A model generated the notes under the pieces. The model did not search any database, was not told the origin of the DNA, and worked only from the letters and a program-made list of their open reading frames with translations. Positions 7,590 to 35,854 of a stretch of DNA of 36,882 nt are shown here, piece by piece; position 1 is the stretch's first letter; each line of letters begins with the position of its first letter. Origin of the DNA: an uncultured Flavobacteriaceae bacterium (GTDB lineage: Bacteria; Bacteroidota; Bacteroidia; Flavobacteriales; Flavobacteriaceae). Position numbers and translations under genes: made by a program. Location of the stretch: positions 1-36,882 of the forward strand of contig CALKFR010000039.1 in assembly GCA_938084555.1 (NCBI GenBank), written 5' to 3'.

Positions 7590-7658
7590 CAAAGTTAAAT
7601 TTCATTAGAATCTCTAGCTATTATTTTTGAGGATAAATCTATAAAATTTGAGGATAAG
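7590..7658 (-). promoter_or_regulatory. Operator and -7 box for the sulfatase-GH10 operon (operator copy 1)
   Basis: Read on the minus strand, two CCTCAAA half-sites (7647-7653 and 7626-7632) lie exactly 21 bp apart. They are followed after 28 bp by TAACTTTG (7590-7597), which fits the Bacteroidota -7 consensus TAnnTTTG. No TTTG -33 box is visible, which fits activator-dependent transcription. The same arrangement occurs before three other operons here. The region also lies between divergent genes: a weaker plus-strand TATATTTA (7695-7702) could serve the FGE operon, so the operator may act in both directions. Confidence 0.7.
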
Positions 7659-7727
7659 TAATGAATAATAAGATCTCTACTCACAAAAAAAAGTTATATT
7701 TATTTTTTAAAAATACTCATACAATTT

Positions 7728-8777
7728 ATGTATAAATCATTGTTGTTTTCTTTTCTTGTTTTTTTATTTGTGATTTCATGTAAAAACAAAACAAAATCTA
7801 TTGATATAAGTCAAATTAAAACACCAGAGGGAATGATTTGGGTAGCTGGTAAAACATTTATTCAAGGAGCTAAGTCTTCAGATATGTATGCCATGCCTAG
7901 AGAAAAACCAGCTCATGAAGTTACAGTTGATGGTTTCTTTATTGATGCCACAGAGGTAACTAACAAGCAATTTAAAAATTTTGTTGATGCCACAGGGTAT
8001 TTAACAGTTGCAGAAAGAGAAATTGACTGGAATGAGCTAAAAAAACAATTACCCGAAGGAACTCCCAAACCTCACGATTCAATTTTACAACCAGGTAGTT
8101 TAATTTTTAATAAAAATGTAAAGTCAGTTGTTAATATGAATAATTATCAGCAATGGTGGACATGGAAAATTGGAGCTAACTGGCAACATCCTGAAGGCCC
8201 CAATTCTACAATTGAGGGAAAGTATAATCATCCTGTTGTTCATATTGCTTATGAAGATGCATTAGCATATTGTAACTGGGCAAACAGAAGACTTCCAACT
8301 GAGGCAGAATGGGAGTCAGCGGCACAAGGGAATAATACTTCAACTATTTTTACCTGGGGTGATAATCTAGAGAGTTTGAATCAAAATGCAAATACTTGGC
8401 AAGGAAATTTCCCAGTAAAAAATGAAAGCATTGATGGGTTTGAACTAATTGCTGAGGTAGGGTCATATGAACCCAATAGCATCGGTATATTCGATATGTT
8501 AGGAAATGTATGGGAAATAACAAGTGATTTTTTTAATGTAAATTATTATAGTGAATTGGATAAGTCTAAAAAAATAATTAATCCGACTGGACCTAAAAAA
8601 TGGTTTAACCCATCTAATCCTTATCAAGAGGAGCGGGTAATGAAAGGTGGTTCTTTCTTATGTCATGCTTCATATTGTGCTAGTTTTAGAATTTCAGCAA
8701 AAATGGGTGTTAGCATAGACTCAGGTTCTGATCATGTTGGATTCCGAACTGTTTTTTCACCAAATAATCAAAATTAA
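7728..8777 (+). CDS. Formylglycine-generating enzyme (sulfatase-activating), exported lipoprotein
   Basis: This 349-residue protein has a lipoprotein signal ending VISC (C18) and an FGE-sulfatase domain over about residues 32-345. Near the C-terminus the segment GGSFLCHASYC holds C312 and C317, matching the paired active-site cysteines of eukaryotic SUMF1 and bacterial FGE; many family members with other roles lack them. FGE is an oxygen- and copper-dependent enzyme that converts the sulfatase signature cysteine to formylglycine. All six sulfatases in the window carry cysteine, not serine, at that position, so they are plausible clients. The lipoprotein signal implies action outside the cytoplasm, on sulfatases emerging from Sec. 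It heads a plus-strand group with the DUF1800 and DUF1501 genes and diverges from the sulfatase-GH10 operon. The assignment as a true FGE is strong by motif but untested. Confidence 0.9.
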   Translation: MYKSLLFSFLVFLFVISCKNKTKSIDISQIKTPEGMIWVAGKTFIQGAKSSDMYAMPREKPAHEVTVDGFFIDATEVTNKQFKNFVDATGYLTVAEREIDWNELKKQLPEGTPKPHDSILQPGSLIFNKNVKSVVNMNNYQQWWTWKIGANWQHPEGPNSTIEGKYNHPVVHIAYEDALAYCNWANRRLPTEAEWESAAQGNNTSTIFTWGDNLESLNQNANTWQGNFPVKNESIDGFELIAEVGSYEPNSIGIFDMLGNVWEITSDFFNVNYYSELDKSKKIINPTGPKKWFNPSNPYQEERVMKGGSFLCHASYCASFRISAKMGVSIDSGSDHVGFRTVFSPNNQN

Positions 8778-8825
8778 TAATTAAACCTTTTTATATTTTT
8801 AAGGTCTAGAATACTAAATACAATA

Positions 8826-35500: not shown

Positions 35501-35740
35501 TTCTTGTCTTTTAAAACCTAAATATGAAAAAATTAAAATTTTCTCATCTTCTGAATTGATAGTTATTTTAAAATTACCATCAAAATCTGTTAATGCGCCG
35601 TTTTTAGGTGAATTTTTAATTTGGATTGTTACTCCTGGTAAACCTTCTCCAGTATCATCAGTAACATTTCCGGTAATTACTTTAGATTGTGATAGAAGTA
35701 TTGAGGGTAACATAAAAAAAATAAAAAAAAGTTTTTTCAT
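32579..35740 (-). CDS. SusC-like TonB-dependent outer-membrane transporter
   Basis: This 1053-residue protein has a signal (1-18), a carboxypeptidase-regulatory-like domain (about 20-105, [19 protein letters not shown]), the TonB plug start [19 protein letters not shown] near 101-119, and a plug with [40 protein letters not shown]-type motifs followed by a 22-strand barrel ending in LLGVNINF. It imports oligosaccharides across the outer membrane with energy from TonB. It is the first gene of the susCD unit, 48 bases downstream of a -7 box with the shared operator, and diverges from the HTCS regulator gene. Confidence 0.97.
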   Translation of the reverse strand: [1053 protein letters not shown]

Positions 35741-35788
35741 AAGAGCCTGTTATTTATTGTTTTAGGTTTAATTATAAATTATGTTAAA

Positions 35789-35854
35789 CAAATATATACT
35801 TATAAGTATTTTACTATTTATAATATTTGAAGAAATAAATAGCACATTTGAAGC
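35789..35854 (-). promoter_or_regulatory. Operator and -7 box for susCD (operator copy 3)
   Basis: On the minus strand, two CTTCAAA half-sites (35847-35853 and 35826-35832) lie 21 bp apart, followed after 29 bp by the -7 box TATATTTG (35789-35796), 48 bases before the susC ATG. A perfect 14-bp palindrome, ATACTTATAAGTAT (35796-35809), lies between operator and -7 box. No -33 TTTG is present. Confidence 0.72.

Follow-up and report, generated by a model that had tools for sequence, protein, structure and literature searches.

The window analyzed here, a stretch of 36,882 nucleotides that makes up one whole contig (C39; CALKFR010000039.1) of the draft genome of an uncultured Flavobacteriaceae bacterium (G000; 1.69 Mb, 63% complete), carries four copies of one operator-promoter module, each consisting of two CYTCAAA-type heptamers followed by a TAnnTTTG promoter box (the -7 box), and each lying upstream of an operon and aimed at it. 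The operons belong to a polysaccharide utilization locus (PUL) whose substrate is probably sulfated xylan, judging from sulfatases that stand beside glycoside hydrolases (GH) of families GH10, GH43 and GH3 and beside xylose genes. The same motif lies at the same distance from the box in four gene groups and is kept in relatives, and therefore one sensor-regulator most likely co-activates them. Going by the sequence comparisons, we predict with good confidence that each site is an operator of a single promoter type, of class II (XylS-like), under the hybrid two-component system protein (HTCS) encoded beside susC. The regulons of polysaccharide loci are poorly known in uncultured marine Bacteroidota; in the present case operator, promoter distance and regulator can be tied together by comparison alone, which also predicts a regulon member outside the locus, on contig C78 of the same genome.

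Four modules of one kind

The modules occupy positions 7653-7590 (S1, minus strand), 11428-11491 (S2, plus), 30934-30871 (S3, minus) and 35853-35789 (S4, minus). The heptamers recur with a period of 21 at all four sites, and TAnnTTTG starts 28 bases past the second heptamer in S1, S2 and S3 and 29 bases past it in S4. Exact CYTCAAA-N14-CYTCAAA pairs are present in S1, S3 and S4, and the S2 pair before xylB is degenerate (CTTCAAG/CCTCATT, three mismatches). A preliminary description of this DNA had proposed four modules of one kind with a 21-bp period, 28 or 29 bp to the box and an orientation along transcription, all of which we recover at each site; its coordinates place the sites correctly but miss their far ends by 1-5 bases, and its half-site CYTCAAA is the right word but falls short of the 14-bp bipartite unit that emerges when sites are stacked.

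The S1 operator, CCTCAAATTTTATA-7-CCTCAAAAATAATA (7619..7653, minus), precedes the sulfatase-GH10/GH3/sulfatase unit and is kept in the relatives G007, G010, G014 and G041; 28 bp past its second heptamer comes the box TAACTTTG (7590..7597, minus), with a predicted +1 near 7585. The degenerate S2 operator before xylB, CTTCAAGTTTACTA-7-CCTCATTTTTGACA (11428..11462, plus), is kept in G007, G010 and G014; its box TATATTTG (11484..11491, plus) follows at 28 bp, with +1 predicted near 11496. Before a unit headed by a glycosidase that the preliminary description labeled GH30 lies the S3 operator, CTTCAAATTTACTA-7-CCTCAAAAATAATA (30900..30934, minus), with the box TAAATTTG (30871..30878, minus) at 28 bp and +1 predicted near 30866; it is also found in G010 (two copies) and G014, and in weaker form in G041. 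The S4 operator before susC, CTTCAAATGTGCTA-7-CTTCAAATATTATA (35819..35853, minus), has the box TATATTTG (35789..35796, minus) at 29 bp and a predicted +1 near 35784. These predicted starts assume that the box stands at -12..-5, where the -7 box of F. psychrophilum has been mapped (PMC9723704).

Our comparison set comprised 117 genomes, of which G000, G007, G010, G014 and G041 bear the regulon; the loci of relatives orthologous to the window are in part complete and in part partial. Exact pairs occur five times in the 1.69-Mb assembly, three of them in the window, against one for a reversed control. A looser composite pattern with the box at fixed spacing matches G000 at five places, four in the window and one more on C78; the total for the five regulon genomes is 24 (G000 5, G007 4, G010 7, G014 5, G041 3), as against six single matches in the other 112 genomes and four for the reversed control over all 117. 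With the gap in the pattern left free between 15 and 45, 24 of the 33 matches in the five genomes fall at 28 or 29 (17 and 7, respectively) and the remaining nine are spread over 20-39; the binomial p of 6e-22 against an expectation of 2/31 overstates independence, because the 24 matches are orthologous copies of about seven promoters. A position weight matrix (PWM) built from the window's own sites scores S1-S4 at 27.6-32.8, compared with 17.8 for the best of 20 Markov shuffles, a score that is circular for these sites though not for relatives. Nearly all the sites examined are intergenic and stand before genes, in several species. The genome-wide motif search proposed in the preliminary description, carried out on the genome and its relatives in the composite and free-gap forms, thus finds a motif that is not randomly scattered. 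A search for heptamer pairs with up to two mismatches was discarded as too loose (253 matches genome-wide versus 163 for the reversed pattern).

Stacking the sites of the window with those of relatives (28 in all, 20 of them distinct) resolves a 14-bp bipartite half-site, CYTCAA...T..YA, with CYTCAA in columns 1-6, T in column 10 and YA in columns 13-14, which recurs 21 columns on; the information is carried by C and T at fixed positions (columns 1, 4, 22 and 25). In orthologous promoters the motif and its spacing are kept while the flanks drift: across three promoters of G041 and one of G069, identity to the window is 113/136 at motif positions versus 68/122 in between (p 1.3e-6). At susC the operator-to-box distance is 29 in all seven promoters of six genomes while the distance from box to ATG varies from 53 to 78; sites with a spacing of 29 come from G007, G010 (two copies), G014, G041, G069 and the metagenome-assembled genomes (MAGs) of loci L327, L329 and L387, and L331-L334 have 28. 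The gap of 28 is kept at the promoters of sulfatase-GH10 (five), xylB (five, including G041) and the C78 unit (four), and at four of the five 'GH30' promoters. G041, whose SusC is 72% identical, retains all four sites, with a weak 'GH30' operator and an xylB site that has one mismatch more than S2 at a gap of 28.

G041 also has two extra candidate sites with a spacing of 29, one before a 425-aa open reading frame (ORF) and a weaker one before the ortholog of the carbohydrate-binding module (CBM) protein. In G010 a good operator with a box at 28 (G010:C7:69523-69586, locus L101, minus) has a hairpin resembling a terminator, with a T-run, no more than about 80 bases downstream, and may for this reason drive a short RNA; the stretch is matched in part by G069 (81%) and over a 31-base piece by G041, and no match was seen in G000, G007, G014 or G066. 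The upstream regions of G066 (assembly 68% complete) show no site despite a SusC ortholog at 80% identity, and next to the SusC orthologs of G036, G029 and G060 (43-54%), which adjoin HTCSs at 31%, no CYTCAAA site scores above 13. A TGA-type repeat common to these last three genomes was noticed by eye and is unscored.

The probable regulator and the predicted reach of its regulon

The HTCS gene diverges from susC at 35959..36882 (plus). The window holds its N-terminal 308 aa (Reg_prop) and, because the ORF is cut by the contig end, the AraC domain lies outside it; the remainder is at G000:C66:2-3274, where the DNA-binding domain (DBD) was aligned. Two orthologs are full length and combine propeller, Y_Y_Y, kinase, receiver (REC) and HTH_18 domains. 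A scan of the named genomes kept 79 HTCS loci, and the 13 whose HTCS is at least 52% identical to the window's were read; four of these repeat G007, G010 (twice) and G069. The 13 come from Polaribacter, Formosa MAGs and other Flavobacteriaceae, the Formosa-type MAGs being at 52-53% identity. Eleven include the divergent susC, which shares 61-95% identity with that of the window, together with its promoter; the site with its box at 28 or 29 is present in all eleven. As for the other two, in L335, a partial HTCS, the divergent susC region is missing and a weaker site stands at another place; L337 shows neither upstream flank nor site. The best HTCS found in the 68%-complete assembly of G066 is only 32% identical to the window's.

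The half-site word also goes with the first recognition helix of the HTCS. This helix could be read in 80 of 213 HTCS loci surveyed, with the box sought 26-33 bases after the pair: CYTCAAA pairs with a box occur at 6/7 loci whose helix is SRSKLYRK, as against 2/73 with other readable helices (2/206 counting the unread loci). The two exceptions are L205, a C78-type locus, and L266, whose helix is SRSQLYRK; HTCSs at 43-47% identity have SRSQLYRK or SKSQSYRK rather than SRSKLYRK. A second word behaves similarly, in that GTTACA pairs with a box occur at 4/5 loci with the helix SRMQLHRK, at 1/75 with other readable helices and at 1/133 unread loci, a link that is partly after the fact because three of those loci had drawn attention to GTTACA in the first place. 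In this second HTCS group (L171, L194, L199, L215) the GTTACA half-sites are 21 bp apart and lie 30-31 bp before TAnnTTTG. A free-gap search for GTTACA over the 117 genomes gave ten matches (six at gap 30 and one each at 31, 27, 29 and 35) and two for the reversed control; sites at G026:C8:113663 and 125389 fit the pattern, and no HTCS helix was seen within 1.5 kb of them. Counted from the start of the proximal half-site, the box is 35-37 bases away in the CYTCAAA and the GTTACA group alike. Taken together, the conservation of motif and spacing, their non-random occurrence and their association with the HTCS and SRSKLYRK favor the earlier suggestion of an AraC-type dimer, and the HTCS at 35959, then named as the candidate, keeps that standing through its orthologs and their helix, although the AraC domain itself is not in the window.

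On this basis we propose that a dimer of AraC/XylS-type domains of the HTCS would occupy the pair of 14-bp half-sites, which are separated by two turns of the helix and lie on the same DNA face, with each helix-turn-helix of a domain reading one of the two sub-boxes, CYTCAA and T..YA. Given a box at -12..-5, the half-sites are predicted to span about -68..-55 and -47..-34 (at susC one base farther away), and hence the proximal one would abut the -33 region; on the same assumption the sites share the one-face half-sites, the proximal half-site abutting -33 and the fixed distance of class II AraC/XylS promoters. Sensing of xylan fragments in the periplasm may lead to phosphorylation of the receiver domain. 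From the proximal half-site the HTCS might touch sigma region 4, or else alpha, and bring RNA polymerase to promoters that have a good -7 box and lack a -33 element, by class II activation as with XylS at Pm. Import by SusCD, cleavage by the sulfatases, GH10, GH3 and the 'GH30' unit, the xylose pathway of the xylB unit and the second sulfatase locus on C78 would thereby be activated together. Binding of DNA by HTCSs is known in Bacteroides from chromatin immunoprecipitation sequencing (PMC3404733) and electrophoretic mobility shift assays (PMC11253607). Such an arrangement would offer a simple geometry by which an HTCS switches on promoters without a -33 element.

Several observations weigh against this proposal. 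The HTCS of the window is split over two contigs, C39 and C66. In one G010 copy the box at 'GH30' is lost though the operator is still present, and the susC site of G069 reads GCTCAAA and scores only 21.9 with the PWM. The absence of a -33 TTTG, to which the preliminary description had drawn attention, does hold for the approximately 20 bases before each of the four boxes, but it is no distinguishing feature: in a set of 117 ordinary boxes from the genus TTTG peaks at 6/117 at any one position, so that as a sign of activator dependence its absence is uninformative, and in the F. johnsoniae work consulted no -33 motif was found (PMC7366714). The class-wide replicate of the distance map presented in the next section likewise counts on this side, as does the neighborhood of the C78 site.

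This fifth module (G000:C78:10816-10879, locus L049, minus) stands before genes for a 107-aa protein and a 575-aa protein, T9SS-tailed (type IX secretion system), in a sulfatase cluster; it is nearly identical to S1 and also present in G007, G010 and G014. One gene away lies another HTCS (C78:12701-16486), 31% identical to the xylan HTCS and with a different helix, SRSNLFRK, which is a possible owner of the site. That C78-type sites are read by this local HTCS, confining the regulon to the window locus, is the foremost alternative, one we regard as possible but clearly the less probable. The encoded HTCS next to the site speaks for it; yet the DBDs of the two HTCSs differ in both recognition helices while the C78 site resembles S1, and in G066 the 21-bp repeat that comes after a 68% ortholog of the C78 HTCS is another one, ATTAAACATT. 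This repeat, with a TAAGTTTG box, lies at 5896-5951 of L196 (G066:C10), downstream of the ortholog. Control of the C78 site by the xylan HTCS is accordingly favored on these sequence comparisons, because the G066 ortholog of the C78 HTCS goes with ATTAAACATT and not with CYTCAAA, and B. xylanisolvens offers a precedent for a single xylan HTCS acting over two PULs (PMC4855328).

It is also conceivable, but in our estimate unlikely, that the sites belong to some other regulator, either a cytoplasmic xylose regulator of AraC or LacI type or a CRP-like global one, and that the HTCS is a mere neighbor. The xylB and transporter genes are the usual targets of cytoplasmic xylose regulators. In Vibrio XylRA, a xylose regulator of LacI/AraC type, has direct repeats (PMC12125979). 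Against such an assignment, the half-site word follows the recognition helix of the HTCS, the site is found at the divergent susC promoter of all 11 close HTCS loci that could be read there, and G066, whose assembly yielded no close HTCS ortholog, shows no such site; moreover, a Pfam scan of 23 of the window's 25 ORFs turned up no other regulator, the ORF at 16096-16962 giving no match at 1e-5, though a regulator encoded at a distance is conceivable. That the repeats are phased A/T tracts or coding by-products bound by no regulator is most improbable: the region is AT-rich, and ordinary promoters of the genus have lag 21 slightly raised (4.91, as also at lag 15, versus 4.28-4.75 across the rest of the lags 14-29), but the information in C and T at fixed columns, the sharp spacing peak and the mostly intergenic sites speak against it, and the composite and free-gap searches, the conserved susC spacing and the HTCS-ortholog loci already contradict it.

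A possible distance rule for other HTCSs

The agreement between the CYTCAAA and GTTACA groups raises the possibility that the HTCSs of marine Flavobacteriia share one ruler, in which the half-sites are offset by 21 bp and TAnnTTTG comes 35-37 bases after the start of the proximal one, and that only the word differs, being set by the first recognition helix (SRSKLYRK for CYTCAA, SRMQLHRK for GTTACA); we give this about an even chance. A motif-blind map of self-identity was computed over 84 boxes near 80 other HTCS loci of relatives, with 2755 cells of lag and offset. In this genus map the cell that combines lag 21 with a proximal window at -36 ranks 1/2755, its score being reached in 0/1000 shuffles, and 12/84 boxes score at least 9 versus 3/117 control boxes. 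Of 300 shuffles, 6 attained the map's maximum, and no excess over controls is seen at boxes whose gene has a length of at least 450 aa (8/46 versus 4/15 at a score of at least 8). A class-wide replicate covered 56 of 60 fetched loci and 81 boxes, four loci of the window's own family having been excluded beforehand; there the predicted cell ranks 19/2755, 7/1000 shuffles reach its score and it is not above control promoters. The top cell of the replicate is lag 22 at -26, an unexplained self-identity before TAnnTTTG in the class set L265-L324 (z 4.1).

We claim no general rule, because the map maximum recurs in shuffles, the long genes show no excess and the class replicate favored lag 22; the distance rule may nevertheless be general, and a common HTCS ruler is plausible within Flavobacteriia and unproven beyond them. 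If it holds, the PUL regulons of uncultured marine bacteria would become readable from sequence, and loci that look separate could be joined under one HTCS.

The putatively controlled genes and known systems

The S1 unit begins with a single ORF combining sulfatase and GH10 domains (4691..7528, minus), the corresponding parts of which are two adjacent ORFs in G041 and G066, and continues with a GH3 gene (2338-4818) and two sulfatases (928-2337 and 3-938). Divergent from it, at 7728-11417, lie a gene for a formylglycine-enzyme-like protein and then a DUF1800/DUF1501 pair; no operator of the CYTCAAA type is aimed at these genes. The S2 unit opens with xylB, an FGGY kinase (11518..13002, plus), followed by an isomerase-like TIM barrel protein, an SSF symporter, an ORF without a Pfam match and an aldose epimerase, and ends at 18054. 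The first gene of the S3 unit, which runs down to 18091, encodes a glycosidase with a T9SS tail (28663..30831, minus); its earlier assignment to GH30 was not borne out, Pfam giving PF02057 (GH59)/PF11790. The S4 unit starts with susC (32579..35740, minus), with susD (31015-32541) next. In G010 much of the xylan locus is duplicated (C6 and C9), and in the C9 copy the SSF, epimerase, MFS, CBM and 'GH30' proteins match only piecewise or partly.

Operators with a direct repeat of about 21 bp have already been described for the HTCSs of Bacteroides: Ravcheev et al. (2013) predicted repeats averaging 21 bp for 16 Bacteroides HTCSs, with half-sites of 12-16 bp in the examples given, and observed that similar HTH domains have similar motifs (PMC3878776). 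Like those operators of B. thetaiotaomicron and its relatives, the sites described here pair two conserved elements at an offset of about 21 bp around a non-conserved spacer, are conserved upstream of orthologous PUL operons and are linked to HTCSs with an AraC-type DNA-binding domain; they differ in coming from another bacterial order and in their half-site words. The portions of that study consulted give no rule for the distance to a promoter box and no link between helix residues and half-site ('transcription start' and 'TTTG' occur 0 times in its main text), and a literature search over articles exclusive of supplements found neither a fixed distance from HTCS operator to -7 box nor such a link.

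As for the position relative to the promoter, XylS at Pm is likewise an AraC/XylS-type activator on two direct repeats, the proximal of which overlaps the -35 region by two bases, an overlap that is essential (PMC4225500), and MtlR at PmtlE, an activator of that same type, also uses two direct repeats, the blocks lying at -72..-58 and -50..-36 (PMC4514859). The proximal repeat thus touches the -35 region or lies just above it in these two cases. Both XylS and MtlR are soluble and act on proteobacterial promoters, unlike the membrane-bound HTCS and the Bacteroidota -7 box of the present system. The xylan HTCS of PUL 43 in B. xylanisolvens resembles ours in being needed for the expression of two PULs, and differs in that no operator is reported in the portion of that work consulted (PMC4855328). 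The modules described here are most likely a further example of the known kind of control of PULs by HTCSs through direct repeats.

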